This document shows, piece by piece, positions 3,325 through 55,890 of a stretch of DNA of 64,000 nt. Both the position numbers and the translations under genes were made by a program. The stretch covers positions 81,668 through 145,667 of the forward strand of contig NZ_NCJH01000004.1 in the NCBI RefSeq assembly GCF_002278925.1, given 5' to 3'. Source of the stretch: Polaromonas sp. 39-63-25 (lineage in GTDB: Bacteria; Pseudomonadota; Gammaproteobacteria; Burkholderiales; Burkholderiaceae_C). Positions within the stretch are counted from its first letter, which is position 1; every line of letters starts with the position of its first letter. Below the pieces are notes generated by a model. That model was not told where the DNA came from. It did no database searches and saw only the letters and a list, made by a program, of their open reading frames with translations.

Positions 3325-3340
3325 TGTCGCGTGAATTTTT

Positions 3341-3451
3341 ACCAGCCGGGGCCGCGGAACCGGCTTTGCCGGGCCGCAGGCGCAGCGGCCCCTTTTTCAG
3401 TGCAAGGGGCAGAGAGCTGCCGCAGGCTCGAAGCGAGCGAACGTGGGGGCC
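3341..3451 (+). repeat. GC-rich dispersed repeat, family B, copy 1
   Basis: An approximately 110-base element beginning ACCAGCCGGGGCCGCGGAAC and ending GAACGTGGGGGCC. Similar copies occur at 5799-5895, 20676-20769, 37497-37590 (opposite orientation) and 55550-55622. This copy fills the gap between the ABC binding-protein and ATPase genes. It contains several self-complementary blocks (CCGCGG, GCCGGGC/GGCCC) and can fold strongly. Confidence 0.85.
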
Positions 3452-5759: not shown

Positions 5760-5798
5760 GGTGGAGGGCAACCGCGGCGTATGCAGGCCTGGACACCA

Positions 5799-5895
5799 GA
5801 CCAGCCGGGGCCGCGGAACCGGCTTTGCCGGGCCGCAGGCGCAGCGGCCCCCTCGGGGGGCAGAGAGCTACGCGCAGCGAGCGAACGTGGGGGCC
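5799..5895 (+). repeat. GC-rich dispersed repeat, family B, copy 2
   Basis: About 97 bases in the same orientation as copy 1, in the gap between recR and ybaB. It keeps the CCCCCTCGGGGGG core hairpin and the terminal CGAGCGAACGTGGGGGCC block. Its position inside the dnaX-ybaB-recR transcript means it is transcribed and could act as a folded spacer. Confidence 0.85.
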
Positions 5896-5902
5896 CAAAA
5901 TT

Positions 5903-10286: not shown

Positions 10287-10384
10287 GTGACGGGCCTTCC
10301 CGCATGGTGAAGCGGCCAACCGGGTCAGATGGGGAACCAAGCAGCCCTAACTGTCGAGCCAGTGCCGGGGTCGAGGTCCGTCAC
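10287..10384 (+). ncRNA. ffs: 4.5S signal recognition particle RNA
   Basis: The conserved domain IV core is present: GGTCAG on one side (about 10323-10328), GGAACCAAGCAGCC (10332-10345) in the tip region and GTGCCGGG beyond it. These include the GGAA-type tetraloop and asymmetric loop bases that bind Ffh. The ends pair: GTGACGGGCCT at 10287-10297 with AGGTCCGTCAC at 10374-10384, 11 pairs with one G-U. The RNA joins Ffh to form the particle that targets membrane proteins. A strong terminator follows at 10397-10428. Confidence 0.93.
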
Positions 10385-10396
10385 CTTATTTCAAAG

Positions 10397-10778: not shown

Positions 10779-11063
10779 TCAGCCTTCGAGAACCTCTTCA
10801 ATCGCCGCCGTGGTCTGCAGCGCATGTTCGGCAATCTGCGCCGACACCAGGGCCAGTGAAGCCAGCGCGTAGGTGCCGCTGATGATGCCCTTGTAGGCCA
10901 CTTCGGCTGCGATGGCGTCCTGCCCCAGCCCTTCGGTGGCGGCCACGATGCAGGCCTCGATGCTGTCCAGCCCGGCGTCGCTGTACAGCTCCTCGCCCTC
11001 GTAGCTGACGCGGTATTCGTACTGGTCCTGCTCCATCAGGTCGATGTGGAAACGCACGATCAT
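10779..11063 (-). CDS. Conserved hypothetical protein
   Basis: A 94-residue protein (MIVRFHIDLMEQDQYEYRVSYEGEELYSDAG...). The first half looks like beta strands (IVRFHIDL, YEYRVSYEGEELY), and the second half is an Ala-rich helical region (SIEACIVAATEGLG, YALASLALVSAQIAEHALQTTAAIEEVLEG). No signal peptide or membrane segment is convincing. No family can be named. It is followed upstream by a dispersed repeat, and it is convergent with the small gene at 10559-10765. Confidence 0.6.
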   Translation of the reverse strand: MIVRFHIDLMEQDQYEYRVSYEGEELYSDAGLDSIEACIVAATEGLGQDAIAAEVAYKGIISGTYALASLALVSAQIAEHALQTTAAIEEVLEG

Positions 11064-11095
11064 GGCAATACCCCTGCAAAAATAAAAACTGGATT

Positions 11096-11151
11096 AGCTA
11101 TCAAATCAATAGCTGTCTTCGCCCGCACAGTATGGACTACAGGCCGAAATG
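11096..11151 (+). repeat. Dispersed repeat family A, intergenic copy
   Basis: GCTATCAAATCAATAGCTGT ... CTACAGGCCGAAATGGC, between the genes at 10779-11063 and 11137-12516. It resembles the copies at 46223-46278 and 52113-52170 and touches the 3' end of the flavoprotein gene. Confidence 0.7.
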
Positions 11152-12516
11152 GCTTAAAACGCCCTGCCCGGCCATACGCCCGCTGGCAAAACAGGCGCTC
11201 AGCAGGTAGCCGCCGGTGGGCGCTTCCCAGTCGAGCATTTCGCCGGCGCAGAACACCGGCTGCGCCACGCCCTGCAAGGTCTGCAGGTGCAACTGGCCGT
11301 CCATGGCGTCGAAAGACACGCCGCCGGCGCTGCTGATGGCTTCATCGATGGGGCGCGCCGCGACCACGCGCACCGGCAAGGCCTTGATCGCACGCGCCAG
11401 TTGCACCGGATCGTTCATCGCTTCCTTGCCGAGCAGCTCATGCAGCATCGCCGCTTTGATGCCTTCGATGCCCAGCCGGCTCTTGAGATGGCTGGACAGC
11501 GAGCGCGAGCCGCGCGGATGGCGCACCTCGACCAGCACCTGCTCGGGCGACTTGTCGGGCAGCAGATCCAGCAGGAAAGTTGCGCTGCCTTTCAGCGCAA
11601 TTTCATCGCGCAGCAGGCTGGAGGCCGCGTAGATCAGGCTGCCTTCGACACCGGTGGCGGTGGCGACGAACTCGCCCTTCCGGCTGAAGCTGCGGCCCTG
11701 CGAATCGGTGAAACTGATGGCCACCGACTTGAAAGGCTGACCGGCAAAACGGCTGGCGAAGTGTTCGGTCCAGCCCGGCTGCTGCGACGGTCCCTGCCCC
11801 ACCAGTTCCCTGAAAAACTCGCGGCGGGTTTCGCCCTGTTCGGCGGCCGCCAGCGCGTGCGGCTCGGGGCCCACGTCAAAGCCGCAGTTCGAAGGCTGCA
11901 GCGGCGCCACGGCCACGCCGCGTGCGGCCAGCAGCGGCACCCAGGCGCCGTCCGAACCGAGCCGCGCCCAACTGCCGCCGCCCAGGGCCAGCACCACCGC
12001 GTCGGCCTGCACCTGCACCGGACCTGTGGGGGTTGAAAACGACAGCGAACCGTCTTCGGCCCAGCCCAGCCAGCGGTGCCGCATGGAGAACTTCACACCC
12101 GCGGCGCGCAGGCGCTGCAGCCAGGCGCGCAGCAGCGGCGCGGCCTTCATGTCCTTGGGAAACACGCGGCCCGAACTGCCGACAAAGGTCTCCACGCCCA
12201 GGGCTTGCGCCCAGGCGCGCAGCTCGGCGGGCCCGAAGGCGGCCAGCAGCGGCTGCAGCTGGGCACTGCGCTCGCCGTAACGGCTGAGGAAAGGTTCGGC
12301 GGCTTCGGAATGGGTGAGGTTCAGCCCGCCCTTGCCGGCCAGCAGGAACTTGCGGCCCACCGAAGGCATGGCGTCGTACACCTGCACGGACAGGGCCGCG
12401 CCGGCACCGGCCAGCACCTCGGCCGCCATGAGTCCGGCTGGGCCGCCGCCAATGATGGCCACACGCCGTGGCGGGGCGGGAGAAGTTGAATCGTTCAAGA
12501 AAATGTCCGTCTGCAC
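11137..12516 (-). CDS. FAD-dependent flavoprotein, HI0933/BaiN-like (TIGR03862 type)
   Basis: A 459-residue NAD(P)/FAD-dependent oxidoreductase. A Rossmann dinucleotide motif VAIIGGGPAGLMAAEVLAGAG lies at about residues 19-39, followed by the family motif GRKFLLAGKGGLNLTHSE (about 54-71). Further motifs are ALGGGSWARLGSDGAW near the middle and PVFCAGEMLDWEAPTGGYLLSACFASGRMAG near the C-terminus, where FAD contacts recur. Members of the HI0933 family have unclear substrates; BaiN in bile-acid bacteria is one characterised relative. It stands alone, oriented like its neighbours. Confidence 0.85.
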   Translation of the reverse strand: MQTDIFLNDSTSPAPPRRVAIIGGGPAGLMAAEVLAGAGAALSVQVYDAMPSVGRKFLLAGKGGLNLTHSEAAEPFLSRYGERSAQLQPLLAAFGPAELRAWAQALGVETFVGSSGRVFPKDMKAAPLLRAWLQRLRAAGVKFSMRHRWLGWAEDGSLSFSTPTGPVQVQADAVVLALGGGSWARLGSDGAWVPLLAARGVAVAPLQPSNCGFDVGPEPHALAAAEQGETRREFFRELVGQGPSQQPGWTEHFASRFAGQPFKSVAISFTDSQGRSFSRKGEFVATATGVEGSLIYAASSLLRDEIALKGSATFLLDLLPDKSPEQVLVEVRHPRGSRSLSSHLKSRLGIEGIKAAMLHELLGKEAMNDPVQLARAIKALPVRVVAARPIDEAISSAGGVSFDAMDGQLHLQTLQGVAQPVFCAGEMLDWEAPTGGYLLSACFASGRMAGQGVLSHFGL

Positions 12517-12574
12517 GTGATGGCAATGTGAAATGGCACAGGAAGCAGCACATCCGGCGGGGCCGGCTTGCTCT

Positions 12575-12620
12575 GTTTTTTATAGCTGGCAGCGCCCGTC
12601 CCTCAGGGGCTGCGATGCAA
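12575..12620 (+). repeat. Dispersed repeat family A, degenerate intergenic copy
   Basis: TTTTTTATAGCTGGCAGCGC ... AGGGGCTGCG, in the 160-base gap between the flavoprotein and the AddA-like gene. It keeps the ATAGCTG and AGGGGCTG blocks; the rest is degenerate. Confidence 0.5.
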
Positions 12621-12676
12621 AAAGACCTAAAGCCTGGCAAAGGTGCCGGTGGCAGGCCGATTCGCTGATGCCTTGA

Positions 12677-15600
12677 TTATTGCAGTTCGCCGGAAAGCTC
12701 GACGACCGTTCCTCGTCCCGTCAGGAAAGCCGCCTTCACTGGCGCGCCGGGGTAAATCAGTTGCACCGCCGCCCGGTAGTCCTGCAACTGGGCCATCAGC
12801 CCAGGCTGCAGCTCCGGCGCGGCTGCCGATTTGTAGTCAAGCACCCACCAGTGGCCTTCATGGCCGGCGTCCTTGCGCTGCACCAGGCGGTCCAGCCGCA
12901 GTGCCTGGCCGGCATAGACCAGATCCACCTCGTTGCCCTGCCAGGCCACAGTTTCCGCGCTCCAGGCCCAGGCACCCTCGCCCGCCAGAATGCGCCCGGC
13001 CAGTCCGGCAGCCTCGGCCGCCTGCGCCGGGCTCAGGCGAAACTCGCGCGCCGCTGCCTTCACCTGTTCCGTCGACAAGGCACCGCCCCACTCCAGCAGG
13101 CGATGCATGGCCTTGCCGATGCGTGCCTTCAGCGAGTCTTCGTCCACCCGCTCCACAGCAGGCGCAGCGGGCGCCAGACCTTCGGGCAAGGCAGGCAGCT
13201 CGGGCAGGTAAAACACGCCGCTGTCCGCCAGGTCCGGCCGCGCTGCGGCAGATTCGTCGGCCACCGGTGCAGGCAGCTCGCCCACCAGTGCCTGCAAGCG
13301 CTGCCACCAGCTTTCAGTGGTCACGCGGTGCGGTGCTATGGAGGAAATCACCAGCGTATGGCGGGCGCGCGTCAGCGCCACATACAGGGCGTTGAGTTCT
13401 TCGCGCTTGCGCGCGGCCAGCTCGCTGGCCAGCGTGTCGGCGGCGCAGGCCGGCGGCCGGCTTTCGCTGACCAGGAAGACAAACTTGCGCGGCTCGGTCG
13501 CCTCGCCGGGCCAGTCGACCAGCACGCCCATGCTGTCGGCGTTGCGTTCCACGGTGTCGGTGTCCAGCAGCAGCACGGCCTCGGCTTCGAGTCCCTTGGC
13601 GCCATGAATCGTCAGTAGCCGGACCGCCTCGCTGCTGACGGCTGCCGGCGCCTGGGTGCCACCGGCCTTGAGCGCGCGCACAAAACCATAAGGCGTGGCG
13701 TAACGCCCACCATCCAGCGCCAGCGACACACCCAGCAGCGCGCGCAGATTCGCCAGCACCGCGCTGCGCTGCGCCGCCGGGGCCGCCGCGCCAAAACGCG
13801 CCAGCACGTCGCCGTCGTCGTAAATGCCCTGCAACGCATCGTGCGGCGGCAGGCGGTCCAGCCAGCTCTTCCACTTGGTCAAAACCGGACCCAGCCCTTT
13901 CAGGTCGGGCGCAAGCAGCTCCTCTTTTTGTAGCAGGCTGTACCACGGCAGGTGGTGCTCGCGCTGCAGCAGGGCCAGTTGCACCAGGCATTCATCGCCC
14001 AGGCCAAACAGCGGGGAACGCAACGCGCGCGCCAGCGACAGGTCGTGCTGCGGCGACACCAGCACGTCGAGCAGCGCCACCACATCCAGCACTTCGCAGC
14101 AGTCGATGAGTTCGGTTTTCTCACCCACTTGTGCAGGGATGTGCAGCGCACGCAGTTCATCCTGCAGCGGCAGCAGGCCGGCGCGCTTGCGCGAGAGGAC
14201 CATCACGTCTTGCGGCCTGAGGCCACCCGCTACCTGTTCTGAAATCCAGGCAGCAGCCTGGCGCGCTTCGCGCGTGCGCAGGGTTTCTTCCGGCAGCTCG
14301 CGCGGCGTTGTCAGGCTGTCGCGCCAGCCGGCGGCCAGCGGCGAGGTTTCTTCTTCGTCCTTGTTCCGCGGGATGGGCGGCAGGCGGCCCACGGCGCCGG
14401 CCAGGCCCGAGGCCGTGGTGTGTTCGCGAAAGCCCTCGTACGCGTCGGTTTCGCGCGCTGTGGCCATGACCGAGTTGACGGTGTCGATCACGGCTTCTGC
14501 ATTGCGCCGGGTGTGGTCGCAGCTGAGCAGATCACCGCCCAGGCCGTGCACCACAAAAGCCTGCGCGGCACGAAACACCTGCGGCTCGGCACGGCGGAAG
14601 CGGTAAATGCTTTGTTTGGGGTCACCCACCAGGAACACGCTGGGTGCGGTGCCGGCACCCGAGTAGCCGATGAGCCAGGCGTACAGCGCCTGCCACTGCA
14701 GCGGGTTGGTGTCCTGGAACTCGTCGATCATCAAATGCCGGATGCGCGCGTCCAGCCGCTCCTGCACCCAGCCCGACAGCACCGGGTCGGCCAGCATCAG
14801 CAGCGCGGCGCGTTCAACATCGTTCATGTCGACCCAGCCGCGGTCGCGCTTCAAGCCGGTGAACTGGGCAATCAGCACACGCGTCAGGCGCGCCATGCGC
14901 TGCTGGTAGAGCCAGGCGTCGTGCTGCTGGCGGGCCGCCACCACGCGCAGCACCAGATCCTGGGCCATGCGTACCTGTTCGATGCCGACGATTTTTTCGC
15001 CGAACTTGCGGGGCGTGCCCTTGTCGGTCAGCAGGGCCGCGATGGCCGCCGGGAAGTCGCCGGCCGTCAGCGCACGCTCCAGCTCCACCCCCTTGGCCGA
15101 AAAAGTCGGCGCGCTCGCGCGGCCCAGCGCCACGGCGGCGTCACTGAGGGTTTGCCGGTGAAAGCGGTTGGTGCTGAGCGACTCTTCCGGTTCATCAAGG
15201 CCGCCAAATTCGGTGAACTGTGCGCTGAAGGCTTGCACCGAGGTGTCGATCACGCCTTTTTCATCGGCCAGCGTGAACTCGGTGCGCTTGTCGAGTGCGG
15301 CCTGCAGCGCCTTGTCGGTCTGGAAGCGCCCATAGGCCAGCACCACCGCCTCAAAGTCGGCCTTGAGCGCGGCATCAGCCGAAACGGCTGCGTAAAAGCG
15401 CCGCCACACCAGCGCGCGCGCCGGCGCGTCGTCTTCCAGCAGCTCGTAGTTCACCGGCAGCTCCAGGCGCTGCAGCACCGCCACCGGCGCGCTGCGCAGC
15501 AGGGCCGCAAACCAGCTGTGGAAGGTGCGGATCTGCACCGAGCGGCCGCTGGCCAGAATGGATCGGTATAAATTTGATAGCTGCTCGCGCACGGCCTGTG

Positions 15601-20650: not shown

Positions 20651-20675
20651 CCCCCTGCCCGCTGACTGAATTAGT

Positions 20676-20769
20676 CCAGCCGGGGCCGCGGAACCGGCTT
20701 TGCCGGGCCGCAGGCGCAGCGCCCCCTCGGGGGGCAGCGTTTACACGCAGTGAAAAAGCGTGGGGGCCC
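20676..20769 (+). repeat. GC-rich dispersed repeat, family B, copy 3
   Basis: CCAGCCGGGGCCGCGGAACC ... AAAAAGCGTGGGGGCCCC in the gap between rho and rpmE2. No T-rich terminator is visible after rho, so this foldable repeat may be the only strong structure in the 3' region of the rho transcript. Confidence 0.85.
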
Positions 20770-37485: not shown

Positions 37486-38468
37486 GACTGTAACTGGCCC
37501 CCACGGTTGCTCACTTCGTGTAGCGCCCTGCCCCCCGGGGGGGCCGCTGCGCCTGCGGCCTGGCCAAGCCAGTTCCGCGGCCCCGGCTCGAACAGAGGGG
37601 AGACCTCTCCGCTAATTCCACTTTTCAGTGGCTCCCTTCGATGGGTTTCATGGGACGGCGCCCAGTGCAGCAGCTCCAGCTTGCCGTCGTAGTGTTCCAC
37701 CAGCGCGGTGCGGCTTTCGACCCAGTCGCCGTCGTTGCAATACAGCACGCCGTTGATGTCGCGCATTTCGGCGCGGTGAATGTGGCCGCAGACCACCCCC
37801 TGGTGGCCGCGCCGGCGCGCCTCGTTGGCCACGGCGACTTCAAAGTCGGTGACGTAGTTCAGCGCGCTCTTGACCTTGTGTTTGAGGTAGGCCGAGAGCG
37901 ACCAGTACGGCAGGCCCATGCGCGCGCGCAGGCTGTTGAGGTGGCGGTTGAGCTTGAGCGTGAATTCATACAGGTTGTCGCCCACATAGGCCAGCCAGCG
38001 GGCGCACTGCACGACAGCATCGAAATAGTCGCCGTGGACGATCCACAGGTGGCGGCCATCGGCCGTGACGTGGACCGCTTCTTCCATGACCTCGATGCCG
38101 CCGAACTGGTGGCCGATAAATTCACGCGCAAACTCATCATGGTTGCCGGGCACGTAGACAATCCGGCAGCCCTTGCGTGCGCGCCGCAGCAGCTTTTGCA
38201 CCACGTCGTTGTGCGACTGCGGCCAGTACCATTTGCGCCGCAGTTGCCAGCCGTCCACGATGTCGCCCACCAGGTAGAGGTAGTCGCTCGGGTGCGCCTT
38301 GAGGAAATCCAGCAGCGCCGCGGCCTGGCAGCCTGGCGTGCCCAGATGCAGGTCGGAGATGAAGATGCTGCGGTAACGCTTGCGCAGTGCGGCGTCGTCA
38401 TGCGCATCGTCCCCACCTTGCGGGAGACCGGGGTTGAGCGAACCAAGCTTGTCGAACAGCGTACGCAT
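37482..38468 (-). CDS. Calcineurin-like phosphoesterase, PlcP-like phospholipase C
   Basis: A 328-residue metallophosphoesterase. Metal ligands: D39 and H41 in FISDLHLGTPGCQ, D69 in VGDIVDGW, N/H in GNHDEF (108-113), H145 in IVHGDYFD and GHIH at 228-231. The long match DGWQLRRKWYWPQSHNDVVQ is characteristic of PlcP, the phospholipase C that removes phospholipid headgroups in phosphate-starved bacteria; such proteins are often called UDP-2,3-diacylglucosamine diphosphatases by similarity. Residues about 283-328 come from a family B repeat. It starts at the stop of the acyltransferase gene and overlaps the glycosyltransferase start. Confidence 0.85.
   Translation of the reverse strand: MRTLFDKLGSLNPGLPQGGDDAHDDAALRKRYRSIFISDLHLGTPGCQAAALLDFLKAHPSDYLYLVGDIVDGWQLRRKWYWPQSHNDVVQKLLRRARKGCRIVYVPGNHDEFAREFIGHQFGGIEVMEEAVHVTADGRHLWIVHGDYFDAVVQCARWLAYVGDNLYEFTLKLNRHLNSLRARMGLPYWSLSAYLKHKVKSALNYVTDFEVAVANEARRRGHQGVVCGHIHRAEMRDINGVLYCNDGDWVESRTALVEHYDGKLELLHWAPSHETHRREPLKSGISGEVSPLFEPGPRNWLGQAAGAAAPPGGRALHEVSNRGGQLQS
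37497..37590 (-). repeat. GC-rich dispersed repeat, family B, copy 4, read as the C-terminal tail of the PlcP-like protein
   Basis: In reverse orientation to the other copies: GGCCGCAGGCGCAGCGGCCC ... AGCAACCGTGGGGGCC on the minus strand. It encodes EPGPRNWLGQAAGAAAPPGG and the residues to the C-terminus, with the stop a few bases after the repeat. Confidence 0.85.
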
Positions 38469-45397: not shown

Positions 45398-46235
45398 GCT
45401 CCTGGCCCTCTCGACTTCCGGGCCGACCCGGCTGACATTTTCGCTCCACACCCTGGCTTCGCGCGGCGGCGCAACCGGCAGCTCGCGCGACGGCTGGGGC
45501 GTTGCCTTCTACCAGGGCGAAGACGTGGCGCTGTTCCGCGAACCGCTGGCCGCCGGAGACAGCCCCTTGGTTCGCTACCTCGAAACCCAGGGGCCGAGCA
45601 CCCAACTGGCCATCTCGCACATCCGCCATGCCACGCGTGGCGCGGTGAGCTTCTCGAACACGCAGCCCTTTGTTCGGGAACTGGGTGGCCGCACCCATGT
45701 GTTTGCCCACAACGGCGACCTGCCCGGCATCGAAAGCTGCAAAACGCTGACGCTCGGCGCCTACCGGCCCGTGGGGCAGACCGATTCGGAACATGCTTTC
45801 TGCGCCCTGATGGAACGCCTGCGGCCACTGTGGGACGGGGCCGAGCCTCCATCCTTGGACGCACGCCTGTCGCTGCTGGCGTCCTTCGCCGCCGACCTGC
45901 GCGCGCTCGGCCCGGCCAACTTTCTTTACGCCGACGGCGACACCCTGTTTGCACACGGCCACAAGCGCCTGCAACCCGACCTCGGCCGTCCCGGGCCGCC
46001 AGGCCTGTGGATGCTGCAACGGCATTGCCCACCCGAGGAGCCGGCGACAGCCCGCGAAGCCGGCGTCGCGATCGTGCAGGAGGAGCGCCACGCCCTGTTT
46101 ATCGCAAGCGTGCCGCTCACCGACGAGGCCTGGCAGCCGCTGGCCGAAGGGGATCTGGTGGCGGTACGCCATGGTGCCTTGCTCGCTACGCGTGGTGCTG
46201 CCACTGCTGCAGTGACTTCATCCGCTACCAAATAG
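45390..46235 (+). CDS. Class II glutamine amidotransferase family protein
   Basis: A 281-residue Ntn-fold protein. After Met, Cys-2 (MCELLALSTSGP) is the expected N-terminal nucleophile. Glutamine-site motifs follow: FSLHTLASRGGATGSSRDGWGVAFYQGE, HIRHATRGAVSFSNTQPFVRELGGRTHVFAHNGDLPGI. Members of the YafJ/glxB branch are predicted hydrolases or glutamine amidotransferases with unknown acceptors. It overlaps czcD by 8 bases but has no obvious functional link. It ends the conserved block; accessory DNA begins just after the stop. Confidence 0.85.
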   Translation: MCELLALSTSGPTRLTFSLHTLASRGGATGSSRDGWGVAFYQGEDVALFREPLAAGDSPLVRYLETQGPSTQLAISHIRHATRGAVSFSNTQPFVRELGGRTHVFAHNGDLPGIESCKTLTLGAYRPVGQTDSEHAFCALMERLRPLWDGAEPPSLDARLSLLASFAADLRALGPANFLYADGDTLFAHGHKRLQPDLGRPGPPGLWMLQRHCPPEEPATAREAGVAIVQEERHALFIASVPLTDEAWQPLAEGDLVAVRHGALLATRGAATAAVTSSATK

Positions 46236-46278
46236 ATAGCTGCTTGCGCTTTCGCAGCAAGGACTGGAGGCTGATTTT
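46223..46278 (+). repeat. Dispersed repeat family A, left border of the accessory region
   Basis: GCTACCAAATAGATAGCTGC ... GCAAGGACTGGAGGCTGATTTT, overlapping the last few bases of the amidotransferase gene. It is the cleanest copy in the window. Confidence 0.88.
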
Positions 46279-46283
46279 ATTCG

Positions 46284-46418
46284 GTAACGCTGGGCAACCC
46301 GGCGGCCATGACCACGGCCGCCGACGCGGCCGAAGCCGTGTGGCGCGCCGCGAACGATTCGGCCGCGCCGCAGCGGTATCCGGCGGGTGCTGACGCGGTC
46401 TCGCTCGCCCGGAAGTGA
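46284..46418 (+). pseudogene. 3' remnant of a short-chain dehydrogenase/reductase gene
   Basis: A frame without start codon reads NPAAMTTAADAAEAVWRAAN-DSAAPQRYPAGADAVSLARK and then TGA. This is the typical C-terminal end of an SDR oxidoreductase (EAVWRAA.. RYPAGADAV..). The rest of the gene is missing; the family A repeat abuts the broken end. Downstream, 46419-46598 has a 58-codon open frame (MDMRTQGCWVVTAEMVM...) of uncertain status, and the rest of the 465-base gap shows no gene. Confidence 0.7.
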
Positions 46419-46701
46419 GTGATGGACATGCGCACCCAGGGCTGCTGGGTCGTCACGGCGGAAATGGTGATGGCAGATCTGCTGATTGCAACGACAGCCA
46501 GCGCCCCTGACATGTCAGCCAGGGATTCGCAGGAACGTGTGATCCAGACTGAGTACAAGGCGGCTCGCACCAATCTGGAGAACTGGAGATTAGGGTGAAA
46601 GCAAAACCACTTGCCATAGCCTTCCCTCGCATATAGAGACAACTCGAAGAAAAAAAACGCACCACAAGACGTTATAAACACGCGCTGTTACAGTCCCCGT
46701 T

Positions 46702-49107
46702 GTGACACATAAAAAATCACCATCGACGACCGAAGTTGGAGACTCTTTCCGCGACTTGGTTTGCGAGCTACTGCGCACTCAGTTCCCCGATGCACAGCCA
46801 GAACAGTACGTGAATGGCACGAAGGTCGACGTGCTTTTCACTCGTGTGGATTTCGGTCGCACTGATCGGATGGCCGTCGAGTGCAAGAGCTATGAGACCC
46901 CTCTGACCAAGACGTACATCGAAGAGAAAATTTGGCCAAAGTACCAGCGACTGCTTGACGCCGGGTACATTGACGGCGTACTTATCGTCAGCAGAAAGCC
47001 TGTTGGAAGCGCCGCAGCAGATTCCATTAAAGGCTGGCGGTATGCGCGCCACTTAACCATTCAAGAACTAGAAGAGTCGCTTCTTGGGATACGCAAGTAC
47101 GTCCAGACGCTTGCAGGTCTGCAGCCCATTGAGGAGGCGTCGTATGTCGAAGCCCGATTCGATGGGCACGATGGAGCCGCGCTTGAGAAACTGCAAGCGT
47201 GGGTGTCCTCGCCAGCAGGCAACGGACTTGCAATCTTGGGGAGCTATGGTCAGGGAAAGACCAGCTTGGCACGACGAGTCGCGGGTTATTACGCCAATGC
47301 CTACTTGGCTGATCCGACTCAGCGTATCCCCATCATCAAAAAACTCGGCGAGGTTGTGCATGAAACGCGCCTGGAAGCGCTCTTCGGAGCCGAATTTACC
47401 GCCGACAGTCCGGCACCCGGGTACCAGTTCAAGACCTTCGACTACCTAAACCAGACAGGACGATTGCTAGTGATTCTGGACGGCTTCGACGAAATGAAGC
47501 ACGCAATGACGGCCTCTGACTTCTTCTCAAACTTTCGAGAATTCAATCGCCTGTTAAAAGGCCAAAGCAAGGTGATTTTGCTTGGCCGGCCCAATGCGCT
47601 CCCCTCAGATGCGCAAGATTTGGTCTTTCGCGGCATTAGGAGGGTCGGAGGACAGAGCGTCGCCAGCACGGAGTTCAATCAGTGGCAGGAGTTGACACTT
47701 GCCTTCTTCAATGAAGCCGAACGCCAAGACCTTCTTTTTAGCAATCTCAAAAATATCGTTAGTCGCTATCAGGTAGCCGGACGCTTTACGTACAAGAGCT
47801 CGTTCGTGGAGGAACGGACGGCCGAAGTGTTGGATCGCGTACCACCTGATCTGCTCGCGCGCCCAGTTCACGTGCAACTGATCTCCGAACTTGCAGCTGA
47901 CCCAAGCTTTGATTTCGGCGACTTCACCCGATATCGACTTTACGATCACTTCATTCGTTCCATGGTGGAGCGGGACACGACGCAAAAGCGTGCCCGCAAG
48001 GCTATTCCGCTCGGTGATCGCTTGCAATTCCAGCGTGATGTGGCTTGGTGGGCTTGGCGACGCATAGGCAAAGTGCAAGGCAGCTTCGGGCGAGAGGAAA
48101 TACCCAACTCCTTGTTGGCCGAGTTGCCTGACGGAAACGCAACTGATCTTGAGGGCAAGCGAAACGAGTACATCGTTTCCACTCTTACAGAGGAGAAAGA
48201 CTCTGGAGTTTTGTACTTCGCACACCGTTCTTTCCAGGAATTTTTGGTAGCTGAACGACTACGATTGGCAAAACCCGACCCGAATGCACACGCTGAGTAC
48301 TCGGCACATATCACCCCGGACATCATCTCATTTTTGAATCAAACGCCAGATCTGGACTACGTCATGGACTGGTACGACACACTGCGTTCCAGCCCCGGTC
48401 TACTGTCACCTTCGTACCTTTTGTTTTACTCGAGGTTCCCTCGTCTAATTGAAAATATCGAACAAACCGCCCTTAGACAACCTGCGCAAGTAGATATGTG
48501 GACGGTGGCGATCATCGTGCTGGCTCACCAGTCGAAGACCCCCGGCTCCCCCACGTTAGCTCAACTCGATGCATTTCTTTTACAGGTATTGAGATTGGGC
48601 CAAGACGATGCTGCCGCCACTGCGACATTGGCCCTTCTCCAAAGGCAACAGAGTCGTTTTTCATCACCCATGCTGCTCGCACTTGTAGGGGGTCTAATCG
48701 AACGATGCTTACGTCGCGCCCGTCCGGAATCTGATCCGTCTGCCCTCTCGATCGAAGCGAAACAATTCGATTTCTCCGCAAAGTGGCTTGGTCACACCGT
48801 AGAGAAGGTTTTTGCGATGCAGGGGAAGCTCGACGCCGCGAAGTTGCAATTTAACCCAGGCAAACTTATTGCACTATGCGCCGGGGAGGTCAACGACCGG
48901 ATGCCGGAAGCTGTCAGCGCGTTCGGCGAAGTCCGGGAAAGTGCAATAGTGGCACCCGTGAGCGTCGAAACCCAGAAGGTATATGAAATGATCGATTTGA
49001 AGCTGCGAAAGGCTCACGACGGCTTCTTGCGTAATCGGAGAACCAATTTCGTAGTTGTATCCTATGACAGGACACGCAGAGCGGGCAATAGTTTCAAGCC
49101 GCATTAA
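46702..49107 (+). CDS. NACHT-domain NTPase with N-terminal Mrr-like nuclease (probable anti-phage NLR-like protein)
   Basis: An 801-residue protein starting at GTG 46702. N-terminal PD-(D/E)XK domain: helix GDSFRDLVCELL, D43 in NGTKVDVLF, E60-C-K62 in MAVECKSYE, as in Mrr-type restriction nucleases. The NTPase has P-loop G180-SYGQGKT-187 and Walker B LLVILDGFDEM (255-265), where the DGFDE form marks NACHT. The helical segment FAHRSFQEFLVAERL matches the end of the NACHT module. The last 280 residues are helical without clear LRR or TPR repeats and would be the sensor. Codon use is visibly more A/T-rich than neighbours, which suggests transfer. No partner gene is present, so it is a stand-alone defence candidate. 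Confidence 0.85.
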   Translation: MTHKKSPSTTEVGDSFRDLVCELLRTQFPDAQPEQYVNGTKVDVLFTRVDFGRTDRMAVECKSYETPLTKTYIEEKIWPKYQRLLDAGYIDGVLIVSRKPVGSAAADSIKGWRYARHLTIQELEESLLGIRKYVQTLAGLQPIEEASYVEARFDGHDGAALEKLQAWVSSPAGNGLAILGSYGQGKTSLARRVAGYYANAYLADPTQRIPIIKKLGEVVHETRLEALFGAEFTADSPAPGYQFKTFDYLNQTGRLLVILDGFDEMKHAMTASDFFSNFREFNRLLKGQSKVILLGRPNALPSDAQDLVFRGIRRVGGQSVASTEFNQWQELTLAFFNEAERQDLLFSNLKNIVSRYQVAGRFTYKSSFVEERTAEVLDRVPPDLLARPVHVQLISELAADPSFDFGDFTRYRLYDHFIRSMVERDTTQKRARKAIPLGDRLQFQRDVAWWAWRRIGKVQGSFGREEIPNSLLAELPDGNATDLEGKRNEYIVSTLTEEKDSGVLYFAHRSFQEFLVAERLRLAKPDPNAHAEYSAHITPDIISFLNQTPDLDYVMDWYDTLRSSPGLLSPSYLLFYSRFPRLIENIEQTALRQPAQVDMWTVAIIVLAHQSKTPGSPTLAQLDAFLLQVLRLGQDDAAATATLALLQRQQSRFSSPMLLALVGGLIERCLRRARPESDPSALSIEAKQFDFSAKWLGHTVEKVFAMQGKLDAAKLQFNPGKLIALCAGEVNDRMPEAVSAFGEVRESAIVAPVSVETQKVYEMIDLKLRKAHDGFLRNRRTNFVVVSYDRTRRAGNSFKPH

Positions 49108-49235
49108 CTACGCCATCCAGATGAGGTTGTTGCGCCTTATCCTTTAGCATGGATGAATCAGTATGCTACTACCTCAATAGCTACTAACGCCCGCCCGCCA
49201 AGGGCAAAACCAGCGCCCTGTAAGACTTATAAGAT

Positions 49236-49439
49236 TCACAAACTCCGCTGCTTCACCCGCCAGAACAGCGCCTCCGCACTCTCCTTGCGCTCGCTGTACC
49301 GGTCCACCAGGTAGGGCGCGACATCGCGAGTAAGCAACGTGAACTTGACGAGTTCTTCCATCACGTCCACCACACCGACCACCGACGACTGATCGGGAAT
49401 CGTCAGCACGCGCAGCAGGTTGATCCGCCGCACACCCAA
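49236..49439 (-). pseudogene. Internally deleted duplicate of the arsH 3' end
   Basis: A 67-codon frame reads [14 protein letters not shown], then directly [45 protein letters not shown]. The intact arsH (52171-52908) has the same sequence with about 20 extra codons between SSV and VVDVM. The 5' two thirds are missing. It lies in the same orientation as arsH about 3 kb away, forming a direct repeat of about 200 bases with the adjoining GATTCACAAACTCCGCTG. The surrounding 49108-49235 and 49440-49640 contain a partial family A repeat (about 49173-49200) and otherwise nothing recognisable. Confidence 0.85.
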
Positions 49440-49640: not shown

Positions 49641-50018
49641 ATGCGAAGTTTGACCTCTCAACAATTGCAGGCCCTCGAGAGAACCGGCGCCTCCGAACCG
49701 GAGCCGCTCCATCTTGCCGACCTGAGCCGTCCGTTTGTTTACGACAGGGCGTTTGGCGTTTTTTACTGCGTTCCAGGCCGTCATCGCGACACGATGTCAC
49801 TTCTGTACGCTTATGCCAAAGGGTACGAAAGCGGCATTGACGCGGCTGAAGCGCTTGGCCTGGACTTTCCCGAGGAGACGGCCGACAGGTGGCTGGAAGA
49901 AATCGAGGGGACCGCTTTTCGCAGCTCGGTGGGCCACCGGGTGCAGGTTGGAAAGCGGGCCAACCTCACGCGCATCGAGGAGCGCTGGTTGGGTGAGGTG
50001 GAGTATTTATTTGACTGA
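49641..50018 (+). CDS. Hypothetical protein
   Basis: A 125-residue protein (MRSLTSQQLQALERTGASEPEPLHLADLSRPFVYDRAFGVFYCVPG...). Helical Gln/Leu start, a central part with DTMSLLYAYAKGYESGIDAAEALGLDFPEETADRWLEEIEG and a basic stretch RVQVGKRANLTRIEERWLGEVEYLFD. No signal or membrane segment. It does not match a family I recognise. It lies alone between the decayed arsH copy and the MerR-type gene; a toxin-antitoxin partner is not visible. Confidence 0.55.
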   Translation: MRSLTSQQLQALERTGASEPEPLHLADLSRPFVYDRAFGVFYCVPGRHRDTMSLLYAYAKGYESGIDAAEALGLDFPEETADRWLEEIEGTAFRSSVGHRVQVGKRANLTRIEERWLGEVEYLFD

Positions 50019-50120: not shown

Positions 50121-50193
50121 TCATGCAAGCGTCGGTCCATGAGCCTGGTTGCCCCACCAACGCGGCAGCTCGCGTCCAGCCTGGCCAGCGCGC

Positions 50194-50625
50194 TCACGCC
50201 TTCGACCGCACGCGCACGGGCTTCCTCACGCGTGGCGTCAACTCGCCGGCCGCCGCTGAGCGCAGCAGTCGCTGAAAGGTCGGGCACTCGGCGTGGCTGG
50301 GCGCGGGACACACCGCCGCATGTCTGAGCCCGTTGCGCATCGCCTTCAGGCGCTTGATCGTGTTGTCCAGCTCGTCGGCCTTGGCGCTGAGCGACTGCCT
50401 GTCGATGCTGGCCTGACCGTCGGGCGAGAACATGGCGCCGATGTCGTCCAGCGAAAACCCGGCGGCCTGCCCGAGCGCAATCAGTGCCAGCTGGTCCAGC
50501 ACGCCCGGTGCAAATGTTCGGCGCAGGCCCTGCCGGCCGGCCGAGGTGATCAGCCCTTTTTCTTCGTAGTAGCGCAGCGCGGAGGCAGGCAGGCCTGACT
50601 TTTTGGCGACTTCGGCGATGTCCAT
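50194..50625 (-). CDS. MerR-family transcriptional regulator
   Basis: About 143 residues from ATG 50625 (MDIAEVAKKSGLPASALRYYEEKGLITSAG), with AGAGG before it. Winged helix-turn-helix SGLPASALRYYEEKGLI, then QGLRRTF, a dimerisation helix LSAKADELDNTIKRLKAMRNGL, and a C-terminal Cys/His cluster C106, H111, C114 (VCPAPSHAECPTF) that could bind metal or sense oxidants. It is divergent from the DUF2938 gene, with a 19-base-spacer MerR promoter in between at 50637-50667. It most likely controls the DUF2938-flavodoxin-DUF2798 genes. Confidence 0.88.
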   Translation of the reverse strand: MDIAEVAKKSGLPASALRYYEEKGLITSAGRQGLRRTFAPGVLDQLALIALGQAAGFSLDDIGAMFSPDGQASIDRQSLSAKADELDNTIKRLKAMRNGLRHAAVCPAPSHAECPTFQRLLRSAAAGELTPRVRKPVRVRSKA

Positions 50626-52112: not shown

Positions 52113-52170
52113 CGCTATTAATTCAATAGCTGCCTGCGCTTGTCCGGCATGGGCTGGAGGCCGATTTGAT
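52113..52170 (+). repeat. Dispersed repeat family A, between the MerR module and arsH
   Basis: GCTATTAATTCAATAGCTGC ... GGGCTGGAGGCCGATTTGAT. It directly abuts the arsH stop, at the right end of the segment bracketed by the two arsH 3' copies. Confidence 0.82.
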
Positions 52171-52908
52171 TCACAAACTCCGCTGATTCACCCGCTTCGA
52201 CAGTGCCTCCGCACTCTCCTTGCGCTCGCTGTACCGGTCCACCAGATAAGGCGCCACATCACGCGTGAGCAAGGTGAACTTCACGAGTTCTTCCATCACA
52301 TCGACCACGCGGTCGTAATAGGCGGAAGGCTTCATGCGCCCGGCTTCGTCGAACTCCAGGAAGGCCTTGGCCACCGAGGACTGGTTGGGAATGGTCAGCA
52401 TGCGCATCCAGCGGCCCAGCACGCGCAGCTGGCTCACCGCGTTGAAGGACTGCGAGCCGCCGCTGACCTGCATCACGGCCAGGGTTTTGCCCTGGGTCGG
52501 CCGTACCGCGCCCTCGGCCAGCGGGATCCAGTCGATCTGTGATTTCATGATGCCGGTCATGGCGCCGTGGCGCTCGGGCGAGGTCCAGACCATGCCTTCG
52601 GCCCACTGCGCGAGTTGCCGCAGCTCCTGCACCTTGGGGTGGCTGTCGGGCGCGTCGTCGGGCAGCGGCAGGCCGCTCGGGTCAAAGGTTCTGGTTTCGG
52701 CGCCCATGGCCTGCAGCAGGCGCGCGGCCTCCTCGCTGAGCAGGCGGCTGTAGGAGCGCTCGCGTACCGAGCCGTAGAGCAGCAAAATGCGCGGCGCGTG
52801 CGCTGACGGCCGGAAGGCCTGCAGTGCGCTGGCTGTGGGCAGCGCGAACAGGTCTTTATCTACGTTGGGAAGGTCTTCAAGCGCCGGCAACACGTTCTCC
52901 CTTGGCAT
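52171..52908 (-). CDS. arsH: Arsenical resistance flavoprotein ArsH
   Basis: A 245-residue NADPH-dependent FMN reductase that oxidises trivalent organoarsenicals or acts as a quinone reductase. The FMN loop is [51 protein letters not shown] and [28 protein letters not shown] are ArsH signatures. Its ATG at 52908 lies 32 bases inside the arsC gene, so they are cotranscribed. A shortened second copy of the 3' end lies at 49236-49439. Confidence 0.95.
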
Positions 52909-55299: not shown

Positions 55300-55890
55300 A
55301 TGTCCGCGCGCCCCCTCAACGTCCTGTTTTTATGCACCCACAATTCGGCCCGCAGCGTCCTGGCCGAGGCCACGCTGAACCACATCGGCAAGGGGCGCTT
55401 CCAGGCCTTTTCGGCCGGCAGCAGCCCGCGTGAGAACCAGCAGCCGAACCCGCTGGCGCTGCAGGTGCTGCAGAACGCCGGCATCGCGACCGAAGGCCTG
55501 CGCAGTAAAAGCTGGGACGAGTTTGGCCAGCCGGATTCACGCGCGCGCCGCGCCGGGCCGCCCCAAGCAAGCGCAGCCCCCTCGGGGGGCAGCGCATTAC
55601 ACGAAGTGAAAAGCGTGGGGGCCGTACCTTTGATGGATCTGGTGATCACGGTCTGCGACAACGCTGCCGGTGAGGTCTGCCCGTACTGGCCCGGCCAGCC
55701 GGCCACCGCGCACTGGGGTTACGCCGATCCCTCGGACGTCGAGGGTGATGAGGCGAAAAAACTCGAAGCCTTCCGTCAGACCCTGTTCGCGATACGCCGC
55801 CGCCTGGAGCTCCTGATCAACCTGCCGCCCGAAAAACTCGCGCGGGCCATGGTGCAGCAAGCCGCGCGGGACCTGGCCAAGCAGGCCTGA
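55300..55890 (+). CDS. arsC: Low-molecular-weight-phosphatase-type arsenate reductase with repeat-derived insertion
   Basis: About 196 residues from ATG 55300 with GGAGA before it. P-loop C12-T-H-N-S-A-R18 ([16 protein letters not shown]) is the LMW-PTP signature C-x5-R; further on [31 protein letters not shown] carries the second and third Cys and Asp. This is the thioredoxin-coupled ArsC family. Residues about 81-111 ([31 protein letters not shown]) come from a family B repeat of about 93 bases in frame and are absent from the family pattern. Effect on activity is unknown. Confidence 0.85.
55550..55622 (+). repeat. GC-rich dispersed repeat, family B, copy inside an arsenate reductase gene
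   Basis: CGCCGGGCCGCCCCAAGCAA ... AAGTGAAAAGCGTGGGGGCC, a shortened member of the family. It keeps the frame of the arsC gene open on both sides. Confidence 0.85.

Follow-up and report, generated by a model that had tools for sequence, protein, structure and literature searches.

A NACHT-nuclease fusion gene of Polaromonas sp. 39-63-25 as a candidate bNACHT immune receptor with a built-in DNase

What is the role of a gene that fuses a nuclease-like domain to a NACHT ATPase and lies in Polaromonas sp. 39-63-25 with metal and arsenic genes on either side of it? We analyzed a stretch of 64,000 nucleotides of this genome (hereafter, the window), in which the gene occupies positions 46702-49107 of the plus strand and comprises 801 codons with a GTG start and no internal stop, at the coordinates given in a preliminary description. 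That description regarded the gene as a transferred bNACHT anti-phage candidate, a proposal that gains support from the domains of the protein, its catalytic residues, its sporadic occurrence, its absence from the corresponding site in congeners and the defense genes found near its relatives. We consider it probable that the product is a bNACHT immune receptor of the STAND NTPase class that carries its own DNase and is gated by infection.

Domain organization of the protein

The central part of the protein is a NACHT module (about residues 150-530; window positions 47149-48291, plus strand), delimited by a Pfam match and by conservation in a family alignment of 31 rows. This alignment holds the window protein and 30 of 45 loci; the other 15 were omitted as fragments, interrupted frames, distant sequences or, in one case, a near duplicate. 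The Pfam NACHT model (PF05729) matches residues 177-307 with 32.9 bits (E = 7e-8), which exceeds the cut-off of 26.7, and matches 31 of 31 family members (E <= 1), confirming the ATPase as NACHT. The Walker A sequence GSYGQGKT spans residues 180-187 and the sequence DGFDEM residues 260-265. G183, G185, K186, D260, D263 and E264 are invariant in the alignment, and Walker A and Walker B are thus intact. Further conserved stretches of the module are R-P-V at residues 387-389 and FAHRSFQEFLVA at residues 506-517. The P-loop, DGFDEMKH, R-P-V and, around residue 510, a pattern of the form FxHxSxxExLV show no variation or almost none, and we take the last two to be standard NACHT-module motifs.

Preceding the NACHT module is a predicted PD-(D/E)XK domain of the Mrr_cat-like type (about residues 9-140; 46726-47121, plus strand). 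On the window protein alone, Mrr_cat (PF04471) and DpnII-MboI both match residues 14-77 below their Pfam cut-offs (E = 0.033 and E = 0.026, respectively). Over the family, Mrr_cat matches 24 of the 31 members at E <= 1, with a best value of 9.5e-10. Conservation of the active-site residues D43, E60 and K62 is 90% or higher, and D43 with E60-x-K62 is retained in all 29 rows having the whole region, as counted by eye; outside this count are L022, which has no such region, and L015, which begins just before E60. The D...E-x-K motif and the model match are therefore present at the family level, and the predicted Mrr-like PD-(D/E)XK class is firm for the family and sub-threshold for the window protein alone. 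D43, E60-C61-K62, the Walker A sequence and DGFDEM all lie at the residues to which they had been assigned beforehand.

The remainder of the chain (residues 531-801; 48292-49104, plus strand) is the presumed sensor. Residues 528-801 match no Pfam family at E <= 1, in agreement with the earlier remark that the C-terminus matches no recognized repeat family. These residues were aligned with 13 Burkholderiales counterparts. The 14 regions gave nothing convincing against Pfam (five families at E <= 1, in one member each, best 0.0094) or against solved structures (best E = 0.21); the C-terminal 270 or so residues convincingly match no described domain or solved structure. NCH1 (PF22728) and NCH2 were not among the five families. 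NCH1 also gave no match in the Polaromonas genome, in any of 14 control genomes or in any of 369 genomes of the class; with the model silent in controls and class genomes alike, its absence here has no positive control. The preliminary description had proposed looking for the C-terminal domain in other genomes. When this was done in 299 genomes of the phylum, the region was found in its own genome alone and no other family member was returned. Residues 531-801 by themselves matched no plasmid record at E <= 0.01, and this search missed the C-terminus of a Paraburkholderia relative that the whole protein finds. Both searches were weak, and they do not imply that the domain is absent elsewhere.

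To gauge selection, we simply counted the synonymous and the non-synonymous differences that separate the window gene and its relatives L054 and L013 from one another. Synonymous sites were saturated (pS 0.80-0.90), and pN was lowest for the NACHT part (0.14-0.18), intermediate for the nuclease part (0.20-0.25) and highest for the C-terminus (0.34-0.44). Low pN with saturated pS indicates that all three parts of the protein are held by selection and that none is decaying. The C-terminus is the fastest-changing part, as would be expected of a presumed sensor. bNACHT proteins are described as tripartite (PMC12169576); the effector and the NACHT module are both present in the window protein, and a fast-changing C-terminal region stands where the sensor would be.

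These observations bear on the idea that the protein is a signaling or regulatory STAND ATPase whose nuclease-like domain has lost its activity. Such proteins have a conceivable model in the Pfam family NA-iREase1 (PF22722), which is presumably an inactive NACHT-associated REase. However, PF22722 matches nothing in the Polaromonas genome, the D, E and K that it would be expected to lack are kept in every row that can be scored, and the domain is under purifying selection. We regard this explanation as highly improbable, and a decayed or inactive nuclease domain was rejected on the strength of the kept catalytic residues and the selection on the domain. A receptor with a working nuclease is the reading that we carry forward.

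Searches with the protein as a whole returned little. No PADLOC 2023 model matched the window protein at E <= 1, and over the 31 family members the matches were weak (best 0.0006). NCBIfam gave the window protein weak ATPase matches alone, below cut-off, and no solved structure was matched by sequence below E = 0.2 by the window protein, the family or the C-terminus. No Rfam family was matched near the gene, and the number of promoter-like and terminator-like sites near it was not above chance.

The insertion site

The gene had been described as more A/T-rich than its surroundings, and this holds: its GC content is 53.3% and its GC3 58.5%, against 64.2% GC for the whole window. The site was compared in five congeners (G050, G048, G032, G017 and G056), in none of which the gene is present. 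Two of them, G050 and G048, share the left flank up to the point where the sequences part. In G050 (94% identity), shared sequence runs to 46247 and resumes from 49236, with 1167 bases between that hold an ORF of 343 residues, read by eye as an IS30-type transposase. In G048 (91%), shared sequence runs to 46278 and is followed by 104 bases, by 66 bases that correspond to 49246-49311 and by a match from 50167. The match of G032 breaks off at 45667 and resumes at 50170, that of G017 breaks off at 45406 and resumes at 50200, and in G056 the contig stops shortly after the part that matches the locus. As the flanks are shared and the gene is missing in these congeners, 46248-49235 (by G050; 46279-49245 by G048) can be defined as a segment of about 3 kb that is present here and missing there. 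We infer that the segment was gained here, not lost in the congeners, from the rarity of the gene, the lower GC content and the content of the segment, which includes the 3' end of an SDR gene.

This SDR oxidoreductase 3' remnant (46288-46415, plus strand) matches an SDR gene on a Variovorax boronicumulans plasmid with 79.2% DNA identity across 128 bases. It is taken to be the gene remnant mentioned in the preliminary description, with the correction that it lies inside the segment and not merely beside the gene. A duplicated fragment of arsH, also cited there as a sign of transfer, does exist (49233-49373, minus strand; 88.7% identical to 52168-52308) and lies outside the segment. The duplicate occupies the same place in congeners that have no NACHT-nuclease gene, whole in G050 and as 66 bases in G048. 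It is therefore independent of the segment, and its value as a mark of transfer was rejected.

The left edge of the segment bears one copy (46224-46281) of a roughly 50-base dispersed repeat, which is found at many places in this genome and in congeneric genomes. With a query starting at 46236, matches within the first 47 bases of the repeat were obtained at nine other genomic sites (E <= 0.01). The transposase of G050 seems to split this repeat, the right half being a 13-base match with E = 0.43, and there may be a faint copy near the right edge of the segment (49164-49185, E = 0.045). Entry of the segment by exchange between dispersed repeats is thus possible.

Several other features of the window were recorded. 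A second repeat family, whose copies are about 95 bases long, 81-94% identical and in both orientations, occurs at five places (3332-3451, 5798-5896, 20667-20769, 37496-37591 and 55567-55623). An ORF of 125 residues at 49641-50018, also present in G050, has no Pfam, NCBIfam or PADLOC match. A bacterial small SRP RNA lies at 10289-10385, which speaks for a chromosomal location of the window. No defense island was seen around the window copy of the gene.

Relatives and their gene neighborhoods

A single-sequence scan of a genome collection of 84,980 species found no relatives of the window protein; scanning the same collection with an alignment of six rows found 41 loci. IMG/VR contributed four loci, and a deeper alignment gave the same four contigs. 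The closest relative is L054, an IMG/VR contig with 67% identity, which looks like an integrative element and not like a virus, carrying R-M genes, an IS66 transposase and a two-piece integrase. Near-full-length relatives belong to the Burkholderiales and come from a Burkholderiales MAG (64%), Variovorax soli (47%), Hydrogenophaga (46%) and Polaromonas (43%). For relatives in Alphaproteobacteria and for the few in Gammaproteobacteria, the match mostly extends to about residue 575-690, and the match of one Micromonospora locus ends at residue 544. A tree of 29 rows unites the window protein with L054 and L013, with full support, within a Burkholderiales clade of 13 rows, and rows from Variovorax, Hydrogenophaga and Polaromonas come next; the host is probably a member of the Comamonadaceae.

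The gene is sparsely distributed. A match was found in 1 of 101 near-relative genomes (its own only), in 3 of 399 genomes of the order and in 7 of 398 genomes of the phylum, its own being included in each count. Of the six other phylum genomes, three match the N-terminus and NACHT, three match NACHT alone and none matches the C-terminus. A housekeeping gene conserved in synteny, which the preliminary description had named as a finding that would speak against its proposal, is ruled out by the single occurrence among 101 genomes together with congener sites that share the flanks and lack the gene. A prophage gene was likewise rejected, on the grounds that the window protein matches none of 50,697 phage records and that the window has no tRNA. 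No title or opening of an abstract about the window-protein family was found in the literature covered, the founding 2023 bNACHT paper being outside that coverage.

Large plasmids do carry relatives (16 of 72,556 records). In some cases these adjoin partition or replication genes (repABC in Bosea, parB in Paraburkholderia), and others are beside transposition or integrase genes. Together with the lack of any match among phage records, this would suit the same receptor machinery being aimed mainly at plasmids or other mobile elements and carried by such elements against their competitors. Tested bNACHT proteins, however, act on phages (PMC12169576), and restriction-modification (R-M) and CBASS genes lie near the closest relatives. 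We judge a mainly anti-plasmid role unlikely, and an infection-gated receptor continues to be the reading that we favor.

The neighborhoods of the closest relatives were then considered gene by gene; the three nearest, at 67, 64 and 47% identity, have type II R-M genes or a CBASS cyclase in their vicinity. Within about 6 kb upstream of L054 are an Eco29kI-type REase, a C5 methyltransferase, Vsr, FRG, GmrSD_N and an integrase in two pieces; the R-M neighbors of this locus had been chosen by eye before being scanned. About 1 kb downstream of L013 lies a type II methyltransferase paired with an REase that bears GmrSD_N and HNH. Downstream of L014 (Variovorax soli), at 10781-13474, are CapP, CapH and a CBASS cyclase (E = 4.5e-182), and upstream of L016 is a large AAA ATPase with weaker mad3 and Ppl matches. 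Integrases, transposases, HipA and numerous metabolic genes are found among the other neighbors of relatives.

The scan was a small one and covered 58 of 67 script-chosen ORFs from 13 Burkholderiales loci, nine being dropped by hand as short or doubtful, and 86 neighbor ORFs of 17 other loci were outside it. As a control, four chromosomal stretches chosen arbitrarily supplied 60 ORFs, of which 58 were scanned in the same manner. Since the greedy ORF script also picks false ORFs, named matches alone were used. PADLOC families matched at E <= 1e-5 numbered 58 among the 58 neighbor ORFs and 48 among the 58 control ORFs, which is hardly different. Among the matches listed, those of the neighbors to REase_II, MTase_II, cyclase and CapP fall below E = 1e-60, all from L013 and L014, and the best control match listed is 8.6e-55. 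The 25 control families listed comprise TRIP13 (2.9e-11) and BREX and Dpd helicases among others, with no model for type II R-M, cyclase, CapP or CapH; TRIP13 is a CBASS accessory ATPase. The neighbors thus differ from the control in the kind and strength of their matches and not in number, and the defense genes near the closest relatives are support for a defense role, not proof of it.

The same neighborhoods, with methyltransferase genes near the two closest relatives, and the Mrr_cat type of the N-terminal domain raise the question of whether the protein could be a constitutive or modification-dependent restriction enzyme, in which NACHT powers or gates the recognition of DNA and there is no infection sensor of the NLR type. 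Yet the NTPase scores as NACHT, the neighboring methyltransferases have restriction partners of their own, and no methyltransferase was seen by eye among the ORFs around the window copy. A restriction enzyme of this kind appears decidedly unlikely to us, and the evidence is better accommodated by a sensor-bearing bNACHT receptor.

Proposed function and comparison with known systems

For the trigger, oligomerization, DNA cutting and protection, our proposal draws on studied relatives and on what is generally known of STAND NTPases. The NACHT module would hold the receptor off at rest. The C-terminal region would feel a sign of phage or of other invading DNA, which would let the NACHT module exchange nucleotide and oligomerize. 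The oligomer would bring the N-terminal PD-(D/E)XK domains together so that DNA is cut, and this cutting would end the infection and probably the cell as well.

Tentatively, and with the balance somewhat against it, one may go further and suppose that the Burkholderiales members are a separate, undescribed clade of nuclease bNACHTs and that their C-terminal 270 residues are a new sensor domain under arms-race divergence, so far found in this family alone, with a phage or host-guard cue unlike the DnaJ-dependent sensing of bNACHT25. If the receptor reading itself holds, there would be a small, single-gene family of nuclease bNACHTs, thinly spread over Burkholderiales and Alphaproteobacteria, that PADLOC 2023 missed. 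The trigger of the C-terminal region would then help to decide if NACHT receptors settle on a small number of phage cues or gain new ones with each C-terminus.

The genome encodes a second NACHT protein, L001 (contig C42, about 169477-169929; 692 aa). The NACHT module is common to L001 and the window protein, but L001 has no nuclease match at E <= 0.1 and has NCH2. A relative of L001 with 67.7% identity is on a plasmid of Hydrogenophaga sp. BPS33, and two Vibrio phage records of about 14.8 kb (PQ189336.1 and PQ189349.1) hold a distant NACHT relative of it. Plasmid NACHT proteins of E. coli, Enterobacter and Kosakonia were considered as bNACHT25 and rejected; they are shorter (627-645 aa), and the three that were scanned have no nuclease-domain match at E <= 0.01. 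Among annotated proteins, the NACHT protein WP_115783771.1 on plasmid p1 of Paraburkholderia caffeinilytica matches the window protein over 99% of the length at 41.5% identity; it differs in being plasmid-borne, and its annotation is NACHT domain-containing protein only. The likeness to Mrr_cat lies in the active-site pattern and in the family-level matches, whereas the window protein is fused to a NACHT ATPase and is itself below the Pfam cut-off.

The closest likeness among studied systems is to bNACHT25 and bNACHT32 of clade 6. As reported in PMC12169576, these proteins have an N-terminal PD-(D/E)XK domain and degrade DNA on infection with MS2, a D48A mutation abolishes defense, and bNACHT25 senses infection via the host DnaJ. 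They differ in having NCH1 domains, for which the window protein gave no match. Their activation is reported in the same source to need host DnaJ. As NCH1 was not found and the comparison is by description and not by direct alignment, we do not claim membership in clade 6. By description, the plan is shared: a single protein with an N-terminal PD-(D/E)XK DNase, a central NACHT and a C-terminal region, and with a catalytic Asp near the N-terminus in each (D48 there and D43 here, positions that are not aligned). Given the same plan and catalytic residues as bNACHT25 and bNACHT32, the simplest account of the window protein would be infection-gated destruction of DNA by NACHT-driven assembly.
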